From an uncultured bacterium (GTDB lineage Bacteria > Bacillota_I > Bacilli_A > RF39 > UBA660): DNA of 36,878 nt. A program made the position numbers and the translations under genes. The stretch is from NCBI GenBank assembly GCA_949285875.1, contig CASDZZ010000009.1, positions 1-36,878 on the forward strand, read 5' to 3'. The notes below the pieces were generated by a model. It saw only the letters and a list, made by a program, of their open reading frames with translations. It ran no database searches and had not been told where the DNA came from. Positions 10,859 to 29,965 of this stretch are shown here, piece by piece (positions within the stretch are counted from its first letter, which is position 1; each line of letters begins with the position of its first letter).

Positions 10859-10907
10859 TTATCATAGTTTTTTTAATAATTTTTAATTTAATTTATAGTT
10901 TATTAGG

Positions 10908-10916
10908 TGTTATAAT
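10908..10916 (+). promoter_or_regulatory. Extended -10 promoter of the two-component operon
   Basis: TGTTATAAT (TATAAT at 10911-10916) is 23 bases before the response-regulator ATG. The -35 is weak. Confidence 0.5.
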
Positions 10917-10939: not shown

Positions 10940-11614
10940 ATGGAAAAGATTTTAATTGTAGACGATGAAAATGATATAGCTGAACTAATTTCAGACGTTT
11001 TAGAGGACGAAGGTTATAATACCCATATTGAAAATAGTGGAGAAGGAGCCTTAAAAGCAGTTAAAGAAAATAGTTTTGACTTAATTTTACTAGATATTAT
11101 GATGCCAAGAGCTTCAGGTACGGAAGTTTGTGCCAATATAAGAAATGTTACTAATTGTCCAATTATATTTGTTACAGCTAAGACTCAGCTAGTTGATAAA
11201 TTAGTAGGGTTTGAAGTAGGAGCTGATGATTATATAACAAAACCTTTTATAAATGAAGAATTAGTAGCTAGGGTAAAAGCTCATTTAAGAAGAGAAGAAA
11301 GAAACGAAAGAAAAATTCATGAAAATATAATAGAAATAGGTAATATAAAGTTAAATAAGGAAAGCTTTGAAGTTTATTATAGAGATATATTAATTACCTT
11401 ATCTACTAAAGAATTTGAATTATTAAGATACCTAATGGAAAATGCTGGTATTGTGTTATCTAAAGAACAAATATACCAAAGTGTTTGGAAAAATAATTAT
11501 GGTGATATAGGAACGGTTGCTGTTAATATAAAAAGTTTAAGAAACAAAATAGATCCAGAAGATAAATATATAAAAACTATTTGGGGAATGGGTTATAAAT
11601 TTATCAAGGAATAA
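10940..11614 (+). CDS. OmpR/PhoB-family response regulator
   Basis: The receiver domain (1-120) has the acidic pocket Asp8-Asp9, phospho-acceptor Asp52 in LLDIMMP, Thr79 and Lys101 in ITKPF. The DNA-binding winged helix (about 130-224) has LSTKEFELLRYLMEN and VNIKSLRNKI and ends GMGYKF, the OmpR-type pattern. Its ligand and regulon cannot be told from sequence. The kinase gene starts 2 bases after its stop, so the two are translated together. The length of 224 is normal for the family. Confidence 0.95.
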   Translation: MEKILIVDDENDIAELISDVLEDEGYNTHIENSGEGALKAVKENSFDLILLDIMMPRASGTEVCANIRNVTNCPIIFVTAKTQLVDKLVGFEVGADDYITKPFINEELVARVKAHLRREERNERKIHENIIEIGNIKLNKESFEVYYRDILITLSTKEFELLRYLMENAGIVLSKEQIYQSVWKNNYGDIGTVAVNIKSLRNKIDPEDKYIKTIWGMGYKFIKE

Positions 11615-11616
11615 AA

Positions 11617-12900
11617 ATGAAGAAGTGGTCAACTAAATCAGCAACTTTTCTTTTTATTGTTATTTTATTGGCGATAAATTCCGGCTTTCTTTTTTCTTAT
11701 TATAATTTTTATCTAACAGATAGAATAACTGATGATTTATCTCTTGCTAAAGAACAAAATCATGAAAATCTGTATGTTATTGCAAGTAGCATAGAAGAAA
11801 AAAGTCTTAATGAATCCGTTGAAATTATCAAAAAATATATTAAGAATAATGGTGGATATGCTACTTTAAAAACTCCAGAAGGAGATGTTATTTTTTCTAA
11901 TAAAGAAAAAAATTCTAAATTATTTTCTTCTATGATTATGGTAGAAATTGGGGATAAAACATATGAACTATATTATTCTAAGATAGCTATAACGCCGGGA
12001 ATGAATTTGGTAAGAAACTTTATGTTTTATGAAATTATATTTGTTTCTACTATTGTAATCATTGTATATTTTATTAGTTCTAGGAGAATAATAGATCCGA
12101 TTGAAACGATTACAAAAGATATTAATGCTTATAAATTTGGTAAAAGACCTTTTAAAAGGAAAATGCCTAAAAAAATGCAACAAATACAAAATACTTTCGT
12201 TGATATGGTAGATAGTTTAGAACTAGAAAAAGAAAATCAAAATCAGATTATAGCTTCTATATCTCATGATTTAAAAACTCCTTTGACAGCAGTTATTGGT
12301 TATGCTGATAGACTTAAAAAAAATGATTTGTCATCAGAAAAAAAAGAAAAGTACTTAGAAAAAATATATGGAAAAGCTTTGATGATGAAAGTAATTTTAG
12401 AAGAATTTGATGACTATCAAAGCTGTAATTTGAAAGAAACTTTAAAATTATGTAAGATTTCGGTAACTGAGTTATGTGAAACTTTAAAAAAAGACTACGA
12501 AGAAGATTTACTTGATAAAAAGATTAATTTTAGCATTAATTTTAACTGCGGTAATAAATTTTTAATTGTAGATCTTGTTAAAATTAAAAGAGTGTTTAAT
12601 AATATTATAACTAATAGTGTTAATCATTTTAAAGGAAGGGAAGGCAAAATAGTTATTAATATAACCTTTAAAAATAATATTTTAAAGGTAGAAACAGCTG
12701 ATGATGGTGGAGGTATTAAAGAAGAAAAAAATCTTAAAAGAATTTTTGAACCTTTCTATACTTCAGACCCTTCAAGAAAAATATCTGGATTAGGTTTATC
12801 TATTTGTAAGCAGATAATAAGCTCACATAATGGTGTAATATATGCAGAAAATAATAAGATAGGAGGATTAAGTATTATTTTCCTTCTCCCTATAAATTAA
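11617..12900 (+). CDS. Sensor histidine kinase, partner of the upstream regulator
   Basis: The 427-residue product has two membrane helices (about 10-30 and 133-154) that enclose a roughly 100-residue extracytoplasmic sensor, then a HAMP-like segment (about 155-205). The dimerisation box SISHDLKTPLTAVIG carries the phospho-accepting His217. The ATPase domain shows an N-box IITNSVNHF, G1 DDGGGI, FEPFYTSDPSRK and GLGLSICKQI. It is a class I kinase of the EnvZ/PhoR kind. The extracytoplasmic domain has no motif I recognise, so the signal is unknown. The ribosome binding site AAGGA lies within the end of the regulator gene. Confidence 0.94.
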   Translation: MKKWSTKSATFLFIVILLAINSGFLFSYYNFYLTDRITDDLSLAKEQNHENLYVIASSIEEKSLNESVEIIKKYIKNNGGYATLKTPEGDVIFSNKEKNSKLFSSMIMVEIGDKTYELYYSKIAITPGMNLVRNFMFYEIIFVSTIVIIVYFISSRRIIDPIETITKDINAYKFGKRPFKRKMPKKMQQIQNTFVDMVDSLELEKENQNQIIASISHDLKTPLTAVIGYADRLKKNDLSSEKKEKYLEKIYGKALMMKVILEEFDDYQSCNLKETLKLCKISVTELCETLKKDYEEDLLDKKINFSINFNCGNKFLIVDLVKIKRVFNNIITNSVNHFKGREGKIVINITFKNNILKVETADDGGGIKEEKNLKRIFEPFYTSDPSRKISGLGLSICKQIISSHNGVIYAENNKIGGLSIIFLLPIN

Positions 12901-12943
12901 TAATTTTTAATAATTTTGCCATAGAAATTTAATATTTTTGAAA

Positions 12944-13055
12944 TATAATTAAAGTGTAGTTAGAAATAGTGGTACTTCTAGCTACTACTTATACACTCAA
13001 AAAACACTACTTACTCCTTTATACCACTAATAAAAAGACCTGATTGGTCTTTTTT
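12944..13055 (+). ncRNA. Candidate small RNA with a hairpin, a predicted pseudoknot and an intrinsic terminator
   Basis: No reading frame explains 12901-13058. A TATAAT (12944-12949) predicts a start near 12954-12958. The RNA would then form a 10-bp hairpin (12956-12965 with 12976-12985, one G-U pair, loop 12966-12975). Eight loop bases, UAGUGGUA (12967-12974), are perfectly complementary to UACCACUA at 13022-13029, predicting a pseudoknot. The linker holds two copies of ACUACUUA (12984-12991, 13006-13013) and a CUCCUUU stretch that could pair with ribosome binding sites. The transcript would end at the terminator 13032-13055, about 100 nt in all. I match it to no known family. The alternative is an unusual 3' untranslated region of the kinase gene. 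Confidence 0.4.
13032..13055 (+). terminator. Bidirectional terminator between the candidate RNA and sigG
   Basis: AAAAAGACC (13032-13040), a 5-base loop and GGTCTTTTT (13046-13054) form a 9-bp stem with T-runs on both strands, so it can stop the rightward transcripts and also leftward sigG transcription just after the sigG stop. Confidence 0.85.
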
Positions 13056-13058
13056 ATT

Positions 13059-13844
13059 TTATAATAATTTCTTTTTAATATTTTCAATACCATCTTTTTC
13101 TATTCTTGAGACTTGTGCTTGAGAAATGCCTATTTCTTCAGCTATTTCCATTTGTGTTTTTCCAATTAAAAATCTTTCTTTAATTATTTGTCTTTCTTTT
13201 TCTTTTAAGCTTTTAACAGCTTCATTAAGAGATATCAAATTATCCCAATTAGTGGATTTATCTTTATTGTTTTCAATTTGATCTTCAAGGTAAATAGTAT
13301 CTCCCCCGTCATTATAAATAGGTTCAAAAATACTCACGGGTTCTCTCATTGCCTCAAGGGCTATTGTTATATTTATTTCATCAATATCAAGTATTTTAGC
13401 TATTTCACTATTAGTTAATTCTTTTCCTTTCGTCATAAAATATTCTTCTTTAAGTTTTAATATTTTATAAGACAAGTCTTTTATACTTCTAGAGATTCTA
13501 AGATTACGGTTGTCTCTTAAGTGCCTTCTTATTTCACCTAATATTAAAGGTACAGCATATGTTGAAAACTTAACTTCATGATTAAGGTCAAAATTATCTA
13601 TTGCTTTAAGTAAACCTACACAACCAATTTGAAATAAATCATCCATATTTTCAACCCGATTTTGATATTTCTTTAATATTGATAAAACAAGTTTAAAATT
13701 TCCTTCTGCTATAATATTTCTTACAGAAGTATCTCCGGCTTTTAATTTTTTAAATAAGTTAAACATTTCTTCGTTATCTAATACTTTTAAATCTCCAGTA
13801 TTTATTCCTGTAATTTCTACTTTATATTTTGCTATTTTAATCAT
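13059..13844 (-). CDS. sigG: RNA polymerase sigma-G factor (forespore)
   Basis: Sigma-G drives late forespore genes after engulfment. The N-terminus KYKVEITGINTGDLKVL matches the sigma-G-specific leader KVEICGVDT of Bacillus. Region 2 contains DDLFQIGCVGLLKAIDNFDL and KFSTYAVPLILGEIRRHLRDN, region 3 has PVSIFEPIYNDGGD, and region 4 ends GKTQMEIAEEIGISQAQVSRIE; these are nearly word-for-word sigma-G. The usual start is ATG 13844 (GGAAAGG just upstream); an in-frame TTG at 13853 would add three residues. The adjacent ylmC-type gene supports the assignment. Unlike Bacillus, spoIIGA and sigE are not next to it, and it is convergent to the kinase gene. The length of about 261 is normal. Confidence 0.96.
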   Translation of the reverse strand: MIKIAKYKVEITGINTGDLKVLDNEEMFNLFKKLKAGDTSVRNIIAEGNFKLVLSILKKYQNRVENMDDLFQIGCVGLLKAIDNFDLNHEVKFSTYAVPLILGEIRRHLRDNRNLRISRSIKDLSYKILKLKEEYFMTKGKELTNSEIAKILDIDEINITIALEAMREPVSIFEPIYNDGGDTIYLEDQIENNKDKSTNWDNLISLNEAVKSLKEKERQIIKERFLIGKTQMEIAEEIGISQAQVSRIEKDGIENIKKKLL

Positions 13845-15620: not shown

Positions 15621-15639
15621 ATATAAGTAAAACAAATGA

Positions 15640-15854
15640 GGAAGACGTTATAACTGAAATTTATTAGAGAGCTTATTCTAGTGCTGAAAAATAAGTTAAA
15701 TTAAAGTTATGAAGATCACTTCTGATGTATTTACCTGAATTAAGTAGGGTATTATCGCTGGTAGCGTTAAAACTATTAAGAGCTTGTTTTTTAACAAGAA
15801 TTAAGGTGGTACCGTGGGTTCAAACTCATCCTTTTGTTGGGATGAGTTTTTTTT
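15640..15854 (+). promoter_or_regulatory. T-box riboswitch, isoleucine specific
   Basis: The leader contains the invariant T-box AAGGTGGTACCGTGG (15803-15817), whose UGGNACC bulge pairs with the free 3' end of uncharged tRNA. Stem I holds a distal loop around AGAGAGCTTATTC and a candidate specifier codon ATC (15715-15717) in GAAGATCACTTC, which decodes Ile and fits the downstream ileS. A 10-bp terminator stem (15822-15831 with 15840-15849) with eight T follows; it competes with the antiterminator. Uncharged tRNA-Ile should therefore raise expression of both downstream genes. Confidence 0.93.
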
Positions 15855-19591: not shown

Positions 19592-21580
19592 ATGAAAGAG
19601 AAAATAAAAGACAAGAGAACAATAATAATAGTACTAGCTGTAATACTTACGTTATCAGTAGGTTATGCAATATTTAGTGAATCATTAAATATTAGTGGTT
19701 CTGCATCAACCGGTAGTACCAACTTTAATATCGTGTTTGATAGAGTTGGTGTTATAAGAGAAGTGGAGGCTAGTGATACCACAGCAGAAATAAAGGAAAA
19801 TGGTAAAAAGTTAGAGATAAATGTACCAGGTCTTTCTATGCCAACAGCATATGCTATAATTCCTGTTACGATAAAAAATAAAGGAGATATAACAGCTAAA
19901 GTAAAAGAAATAAAAGTAGAAGGACTTGATACTACTGATATAAAAGTAACATATGAAGGGTTAGCTAAAGAAGATATATTTAATCCAAATGATGAAAAAG
20001 AGGTAAATATAAAGGTAGTTTGGGATGCTGCTTCAACAAGTACAAATGCAGAAGCTTCATTTAGTATAGAAATAGTATATGAACAAGTTGCAAGTGGCAG
20101 TGTAACAACAACTACTCCTGTTACTGATAACAGATTTGTATACGAAGGAACAAAACTTGTAAGATTAACACCTGAAGGAGAAGAATATTTTAAACAACCA
20201 GAAAATAATGAAATAATAATACCAGATGGAACAACAGAGATAGGTGGAGGAGCATTTATTATTCCAACAAGCTATACAGAAGATAAAATACCAGATTTTG
20301 ATTATATGGAAAAAATTTACGAAACATATTCTGATTTAGAAAACTTTCCTGCGGATGTACAAGAAAAAATTGACGTAGAAAGCGCCAAATTTCAGCAAAT
20401 GTCAGAAGACGTAAGTGAATATGTAAAGATTTTTTCTGGTAAATCTCTTAAACTACCAGAAAGTGTAGAAAAAATTTCATTTCAAGCTTTTTATGGACTG
20501 CAACTAACAGGCAATTTAATAATACCTGAAAACGTCAAAAAAATAGGAATGTATTCTTTTGTAATGAATAATTTTACAGGAGATTTGGTAATACCTGATA
20601 AGGTAGAGAAAATAAATTATTATGCGTTTATGTCTTCAAGGTTTACTGGCAGTTTAAGGCTTCCTTCTAATTTAAAAAAAATATGGGATGTAGCATTTGC
20701 AGGAATAATGTTTGAAGGCGGTTTGCAAATACCAGATAGTGTGACAGAAATCGGTAATTCAGCTTTCAGTAGTTCTTTATTTTCAGGTGATTTAGTAATT
20801 CCAAATAATGTTGTGGAAATTGGTGAGGGAGCCTTTTCTTATTCTAATTTTAATGGTAAGTTAAAATTACCTTCTAATTTAAAAACAATTAAAAAAGAAA
20901 CATTTTCAAATGCCACTTTCGCCGGTGATTTAATAATTCCTGACGGAGTAGTAGAAATTGAGGATAGTGCTTTTTATTATTCAAATTTTACGGGCAAATT
21001 AAGTTTACCTCCTTCTGTAAAAAGTATTGGTAGTTATGCTTTCTCCGGTAATTCATTTACAGGTGATTTAATAATACCAGACAATATTGAAGAAATAAAA
21101 AAGAGAACATTTGATGTAACCGAATTTACGGGAGAGTTAAAACTACCTTCCAATCTAAAAATAATAGGAGTTGAAGCTTTTAGAGGAAGTAAATTTTCAG
21201 GTGGTTTAATAATTCCAAATGGTGTTACTAAAATTGGTGATTCGTCTTTTCTTGAAACTAATTTTACAGGTGATTTAATAATACCAGATAGTGTAACTAC
21301 TATAGATGTTGGTGCTTTTTTGTCCTCTGGGTTTACCGGAACATTAAAGCTGCCTAAAAATTTAAAAACTATTAATTATAGAGCTTTTTACCGTACTGGT
21401 TTTACAGGAGAATTATATATACCGGATAGTGTTACTTTTGTTACATATAGTGCTTTTTGGGGATGTAATAATTTAACCTCAGTTTCAGTACCAACCAAAA
21501 CCAGTTATATGGAGGCTCAAGGAAAAGAATGGTATCAAGAACCTTCTTTTCCGGAAGGGATTCCTATTAACAAAAGATAA
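19592..21580 (+). CDS. Secreted BspA-like leucine-rich repeat protein with a TasA/camelysin-like N-terminus
   Basis: The 662-residue protein starts with a hydrophobic signal segment (10-28), then SVGYAIFSESLNISGSAS, a pattern seen in SipW-dependent TasA/camelysin-type exported proteins, and a beta-rich domain up to about 165. A short Thr-rich linker (SVTTTTPV) leads to one leucine-rich unit (IIIPDGTTEIGGGAF) and a 60-residue insertion. Fifteen uninterrupted 23-residue units follow (286-630), of the pattern LxIPxxVxxIxxxAFxxxxFxGx; these are the LRR_5 repeats of BspA-type surface proteins, thought to bind host or bacterial ligands. No LPxTG motif or C-terminal anchor is seen, so it is released or held by other means. 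It has its own promoter. Confidence 0.88.
   Translation: MKEKIKDKRTIIIVLAVILTLSVGYAIFSESLNISGSASTGSTNFNIVFDRVGVIREVEASDTTAEIKENGKKLEINVPGLSMPTAYAIIPVTIKNKGDITAKVKEIKVEGLDTTDIKVTYEGLAKEDIFNPNDEKEVNIKVVWDAASTSTNAEASFSIEIVYEQVASGSVTTTTPVTDNRFVYEGTKLVRLTPEGEEYFKQPENNEIIIPDGTTEIGGGAFIIPTSYTEDKIPDFDYMEKIYETYSDLENFPADVQEKIDVESAKFQQMSEDVSEYVKIFSGKSLKLPESVEKISFQAFYGLQLTGNLIIPENVKKIGMYSFVMNNFTGDLVIPDKVEKINYYAFMSSRFTGSLRLPSNLKKIWDVAFAGIMFEGGLQIPDSVTEIGNSAFSSSLFSGDLVIPNNVVEIGEGAFSYSNFNGKLKLPSNLKTIKKETFSNATFAGDLIIPDGVVEIEDSAFYYSNFTGKLSLPPSVKSIGSYAFSGNSFTGDLIIPDNIEEIKKRTFDVTEFTGELKLPSNLKIIGVEAFRGSKFSGGLIIPNGVTKIGDSSFLETNFTGDLIIPDSVTTIDVGAFLSSGFTGTLKLPKNLKTINYRAFYRTGFTGELYIPDSVTFVTYSAFWGCNNLTSVSVPTKTSYMEAQGKEWYQEPSFPEGIPINKR
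20447..21481 (+). repeat. Fifteen tandem 69-bp repeat units encoding leucine-rich repeats
   Basis: Each unit encodes exactly 23 residues with no insertion. Units alternate loosely between a GDLIIPD form and a GKLKLPSNL form. The DNA has diverged but the phase is unbroken, so copy number could vary by recombination. Confidence 0.85.
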
Positions 21581-29877: not shown

Positions 29878-29965
29878 TTTGTATGACTTCTTGTCTGCAA
29901 CCACACAGAAAAGGTTTAAACTTTAAAAGTGCCTTAATGGTGAGTCTAAGTTTAAAAAGAAGGAG
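29878..29965 (+). promoter_or_regulatory. Ribosomal protein L21 leader RNA
   Basis: The untranslated leader of rplU contains the L21-leader hallmarks: CTGCAACCACACAGAAAAGG, then a perfect 9-bp stem (29915-29923 with 29948-29956) enclosing GCCTTAATGG, followed by the RBS. The family is known from rplU operons of Bacillota and is presumed to mediate autoregulation by L21. Fold details beyond the stem are not checked. Confidence 0.8.

Follow-up and report, generated by a model that had tools for sequence, protein, structure and literature searches.

The window analysed here, a stretch of 36,878 nt (contig 9, CASDZZ010000009.1, of assembly GCA_949285875.1; genome of 1.1 Mb, 90.65% complete), contains between the gene of a membrane histidine kinase (HK) and sigG a predicted small RNA (sRNA) gene of approximately 100 nt. 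Comparison with related genomes indicates that this sRNA gene is genuine, well conserved and of a known kind; it has no match in Rfam. The best explanation, which we consider probable, is that of a trans-acting antisense sRNA, controlled by the adjacent two-component system of HK and an OmpR-type response regulator (RR), with a YHYH/G5-domain surface protein among its targets where this protein is present. At the sequence level this explanation is supported by the conservation of the RNA, both helices of its predicted pseudoknot, a promoter element shared with the RR gene, the co-occurrence with the regulator and the complementarity to the target. The relevant features, all on the + strand, are as follows:

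10872-10916, +: RR promoter, with TTTAATAATTTT at 10872-10883 and the -10 box at 10911-10916
10940-11614, +: OmpR-type RR
11617-12900, +: membrane HK
12906-12934, +: conserved upstream element TTTAATAATTTT..TTTAATA, candidate RR boxes
12944-12949, +: -10 box TATAAT of the sRNA
12954-13055, +: predicted sRNA, ~100 nt, with its start placed from the -10 position and its end from the terminator
12956-12985, +: 5' hairpin of 10 bp, pseudoknot stem 1, with the loop at 12966-12975
12967-12974, +: loop strand of pseudoknot stem 2, UAGUGGUA
12986-13029, +: single-stranded linker with anti-Shine-Dalgarno CACUACUUACUCCUUUAUACC
13022-13029, +: tail strand of pseudoknot stem 2, UACCACUA
13032-13054, +: intrinsic terminator

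Locus and conservation

Direct reading places the stop codon of HK at 12900 and that of sigG at 13059, enclosing a non-coding gap of 158 bp. A preliminary description of this DNA had proposed a pseudoknotted sRNA in the gap, and every coordinate that it gave is correct, including those of the TATAAT box, the hairpin arms (12956-12965 and 12976-12985, ten pairs with one G-U among them), the loop strand and its exact complement in the tail, a ACUACUUA repeat at 12984-12991 and 13006-13013, a CUCCUUU patch at 13014-13020 and the terminator that closes the gap. Its sRNA interpretation is supported by the present analysis; the earlier description had overlooked the target as well as the association with the adjacent two-component genes. 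No family in Rfam 15 reaches its gathering score on the sRNA, and permissive thresholds likewise yield nothing credible, in agreement with the earlier remark that no matching family was known.

The RNA gene is present in 11 of the 18 congeneric genomes (Candidatus Aphodocola, which we take to be an RF39-type genus; individual genomes carry G numbers below). It lies downstream of the HK gene in ten of these eleven; in G003 it directly follows gmk, and neither a regulator gene nor a kinase gene intervenes. The sRNA is single-copy in its own genome, and second blastn matches in the congeners correspond either to the target site discussed below (L016) or to the 3' end with the terminator only. Since only ten stretches among 84,980 species genomes contain the 19-mer ACTTACTCCTTTATACCAC, all matching contigs of the congeneric genomes, and a covariance model run on the 386 genomes of the family finds no convincing member beyond the genus, the RNA looks genus-restricted. 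Weak covariance hits outside the genus (E about 1e-3 to 0.1) were rejected for lack of the linker on inspection, and the best of them, in G167, sits inside a reading frame.

The mean identity to the window, taken over nine relatives, is 98% for the linker, 90% for the 5' hairpin and 83% for the promoter (upstream 45 bp), while the flanking genes stay below the linker, with 70% for HK, 76% for RR and 74% for sigG. A short peptide-coding gene was rejected, because the length of an A-run varies between 5, 6, 7 and 8 nt, which breaks the frame.

Predicted fold

The minimum free energy of 12954-13060 is -22 kcal/mol (z -2.86 relative to dinucleotide shuffles), with the linker unpaired. Among 3000 dinucleotide shuffles a 10-bp hairpin appears 32 times, and a hairpin of at least 10 bp together with a loop-tail complement of at least 8 nt only once. 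The feature was chosen after looking, and the comparative evidence therefore weighs more.

All ten hairpin pairs form in each of the 11 genomes, and two of them have changed on both sides, from G-C to A-U in G002 and G003 and from A-U to G-C in G003. Four terminator pairs also show changes on both sides. The loop and tail strands of stem 2, read directly and compared across the genomes, occur in five types of loop and three of tail, and, G001 excepted, loops pair best with the tail of their own genome (8-9 contiguous pairs): a UAAGUGGU loop is accompanied by a ACCACUUA tail in G002 and G003, and a UUGUGGUA loop by a UACCACAA tail in G016 and G017. Random reassignment of the tails equals the observed pairing total in 4 of 5000 trials, a figure uncorrected for the relatedness of the genomes. 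These matching variants are supporting evidence for the predicted pseudoknot, with G001 as a partial exception; the automatic alignment shifts some loops, and the count that it returns for this helix is therefore understated. Loss of both the hairpin and the loop complementarity in relatives, which the preliminary description had named as evidence against its proposal, is not observed, as both have been retained in ten further genomes, compensatory changes included. The pseudoknot loop lengths (L1 0-3, L2 1-2 and L3 28-38 nt) in our judgement fit an H-type pseudoknot, provided that one or two pairs open in the longest variants of stem 2.

Promoter and two-component system

The sRNA promoter lacks a sigma-A -35 element at the usual spacing and has a conserved TTTAAT exactly 10 bp upstream of its -10 box. 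The 12-mer at the start of the upstream element is found at the same distance in the RR promoter of the window. Across the genus, TTTAATAAWTTTTAAT is present in the RR promoter of all ten genomes with an RR, and TTTAATAATTTT in nearly all sRNA promoters, in both cases starting 38-39 bp before TATAAT; the exceptions at the sRNA promoter are G016, which has TTTAATAAAATT, and G003, which is divergent. The G003 promoter reads TTTAAT-N5-TTTAAT-N10-TAATAT, a layout that matches the one reported for CiaR-activated promoters (PMC3091779). Element and spacing together occur at three sites in the 0.84 Mb sampled, i.e., the RR promoter and the sRNA promoter of the window and one other. An RR ortholog (77-83% identity) is encoded in ten of the 11 sRNA-bearing genomes and in none of the seven other congeneric genomes. 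The shared promoter element and this co-occurrence suggest that the RR may control the sRNA; direct binding and the sign of the regulation are inferred.

Target complementarity

A genus-wide pattern search reveals a single perfect 19-nt complement of the linker outside the sRNA loci, located at the ribosome-binding site of the YHYH/G5-domain gene of G001, where the pairing extends to ~28 nt with one mismatch and includes the start codon. Orthologs of this gene are found in five further genomes. Where gene and RNA are both present, the duplex energies are -41.7 (G001), -28.5 (G008) and -23.4 kcal/mol (G009), compared to weaker values of -19.8, -19.8 and -16.6 kcal/mol in the three genomes that have the gene without the RNA. 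The G009 site ranks first among 648 start regions (mean -11.3, standard deviation 3.1), which came from the window and from portions of G004 and G009, so that the target ranking in the genome of the window is incomplete. The CUCCUUU patch, considered earlier as a candidate for pairing with ribosome-binding sites, is part of the invariant linker, which is strongly complementary to particular start regions of translation. Ribosome-binding sites of the AAGGAGTAAG type form no widely recurring ortholog group across the genus, with three exceptions: the YHYH/G5 gene (G001, G008, G009), a multicopy membrane-protein family (G005/G016) and an RNA-methyltransferase-like gene (G002/G017).

The paralogs of TasA/camelysin-like surface proteins were rejected as general targets, because 30 start regions from sRNA-bearing genomes showed no difference from 7 in sRNA-less ones (p = 0.77). 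Energies of -16 to -23 are attained by certain of these groups (in G000, G008 and G009) but are not counted, because paralogs share leaders. The families of these secreted proteins (VGYAIFSES..I.GTA) are large, with up to 16 matches per genome, and the copy in the window (19592-21580, +) runs on into leucine-rich-type repeats.

As a separate observation, YHYH/G5 genes are also preceded by an attenuator-like conserved leader, RAAGSGCUAGUACAGRCUU...GUUUGUAYURGC-U6, which consists of a ~12-bp hairpin and a U-run between promoter and ribosome-binding site (L309-L316, L319, L320 and L321-L350). The same leader precedes unrelated, often defence-type genes, including cas9, Tmn/YobI-ATPase, PDC-S06/AAA_13, DUF6119, HipA-like, PHP-domain and AAA genes. 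It is found in 56 of the 386 genomes of the family, in 42 genera, with zero hits for the reversed control pattern; an Rfam scan of five of these loci gave no match. Possibly it is a shared transcription attenuator for phage-defence genes.

Proposed mode of action and alternatives

In the proposed mechanism, activation of the kinase would lead to binding of the phosphorylated regulator to the TTTAATA-type boxes at its own operon and at the sRNA promoter, raising the transcription of both. In the resulting RNA the loop of the 5' hairpin would pair with the tail just before the terminator, and this H-type pseudoknot would keep the ~36-nt linker CUCAAAAAACACUACUUACUCCUUUAUACC exposed. The linker could then anneal to a few mRNAs at their Shine-Dalgarno and start regions and block ribosome loading, one target being the YHYH/G5-domain surface protein in species that have the gene. 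Such mRNAs would probably be switched off when the sensor fires.

Several observations weigh against this mechanism. The YHYH/G5 gene is undetected in eight of the 11 sRNA-bearing genomes, including that of the window, and no target was found in these eight, the pairing being strong and specific in the other three; the resulting contrast of three against three genomes is a small sample. None of the 82 ortholog pairs of the sRNA-bearing genomes G004 and G009 shows conserved complementarity. Linkers with shuffled flanks that retain CUCCUUU pair on average slightly better with start regions (-12.4), and the linker is therefore not a broad Shine-Dalgarno blocker. G003 (67% complete) has the RNA without RR and HK genes at the locus, and G001 combines a UUGUGGUA loop with a UACCACUA tail, leaving 6 contiguous pairs and two outer pairs broken. 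The promoter boxes are AT-rich candidate sites for regulator binding, and transcription of the sRNA, regulator binding with its sign and the translation block are inferences.

It is unlikely, in our estimate, that the RNA is instead the structured 3' end of the RR-HK mRNA, i.e., a stabilizing 3' untranslated region with terminator, possibly processed, that has neither its own promoter nor trans targets. The RNA does lie directly 3' of HK on the same strand and contains the only predicted terminator downstream of HK. However, the 45 bp upstream are more conserved than HK itself and end in a conserved -10 box, in G003 the RNA is kept but not preceded by an HK gene (L012), a 3' untranslated region has no need of an invariant single-stranded linker, and the complementarity to start regions is specific.

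Somewhat less credible still is the reading that a protein or the ribosome, and not specific mRNAs, is what the sRNA acts on, by titration or by mimicry of the 3' end of 16S rRNA. The linker part UACUCCUUUA is anti-Shine-Dalgarno-like, the near-invariant linker and loop could mark a protein site, and most of the genomes are without a conserved target. Against this stand the general start-region pairing, which is no stronger than for shuffled linkers, and the 20-28-nt match in G001 together with the graded matches in G008 and G009, all on orthologs of one gene. A cis-antisense or bidirectional-terminator element controlling the convergent sigG is highly improbable: in the window only a few bases separate the end of the terminator from the stop codon of sigG, but RNA and sigG do not overlap, and the arrangement is not conserved, because a ~100-aa gene intervenes in several other sRNA-bearing genomes.

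The pseudoknot might even be a built-in gate, although we regard this as rather doubtful: the tail sequence UACCAC would serve at once as partner in the pseudoknot and as the end of the site that binds mRNA, so that a target carrying GGUA or GUA before the Shine-Dalgarno sequence (G008, G001) would peel the knot open while pairing. As a conformational switch, the RNA would then tell full-length targets apart from ordinary Shine-Dalgarno sites.

Other features

The ~100-aa gene that separates the sRNA from sigG in several relatives (L003:1598-1918, - strand, and its counterparts in other genomes) belongs to no assigned family and is absent from the window. Two further leaders are recognized in the window. 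A T-box leader at 15627-15836 (+) reaches its gathering score and overlaps the first ATG of the open reading frame listed from 15725, the true start of which is therefore probably further downstream. A ribosomal protein L21 leader is located at 29889-29957 (+).

Comparison with known systems

The closest parallel is provided by the csRNAs, which belong to the CiaRH two-component system of Streptococcus and for which translation repression has been shown (PMC3091779, PMC4507080). Both cases involve an OmpR-type two-component system, which is indicated here by promoter element and co-occurrence, as well as TTTAA-type promoter repeats at 10 bp from the -10 box. The architecture is also shared, comprising a 5' stem-loop, an unpaired linker complementary to the Shine-Dalgarno sequence and start codon (the anti-start being CAC, anti-GUG, in the present RNA) and a terminator; for the RNA described here translation repression is a prediction. 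In contrast, the CiaR box is TTTAAG-N5-TTTAAG with an essential G and N10 to the -10 box, whereas the boxes here are TTTAAT, lacking the G throughout; the spacing TTTAAT-N10-TATAAT is present, but a second repeat at N5 (TTTAAT) only in G003. The recognition helix of the window RR, TVAVNIKSLRNKI, shares by eye 4 of 13 residues with VVEVYVSKVRKKL of CiaR, so that the regulator is not CiaR, and no NCBIfam equivalog shown reached its cut-off on it. Further differences are the single copy instead of several siblings per genome, the loop-tail pseudoknot (a word absent from PMC4507080), the different bacterial lineage and the lack of an Rfam match.

A looser resemblance exists to LhrC of Listeria, a LisRK-controlled sRNA that binds beside the start codon of a surface-protein mRNA and recognizes targets by UCCC motifs (PMC4132741). 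Like LhrC, the present RNA is linked to a two-component system, and its predicted pairing site adjoins the start codon of an mRNA for a surface protein, but it has a single linker and no UCCC within its 102-nt sequence. The use of a pseudoknot with an exposed pairing region recalls a third sRNA. RydC of enterobacteria is likewise built on a pseudoknot with an exposed pairing region; it is Hfq-dependent and pairs via its 5' end.

The sRNA would work like the csRNAs, and more loosely like LhrC, but is a member of neither family, because the defining sequence features of both are missing. We know of no sRNA regulation in RF39-type gut bacteria, and a literature search found none described. The RNA would represent an sRNA family of this lineage for which candidates for the regulator, the promoter element, the fold and the target can all be read from the sequence. 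That it resembles the csRNAs, with no common ancestry detectable, suggests that an anti-Shine-Dalgarno sRNA has repeatedly come under the control of an OmpR-type system in Gram-positive lineages.
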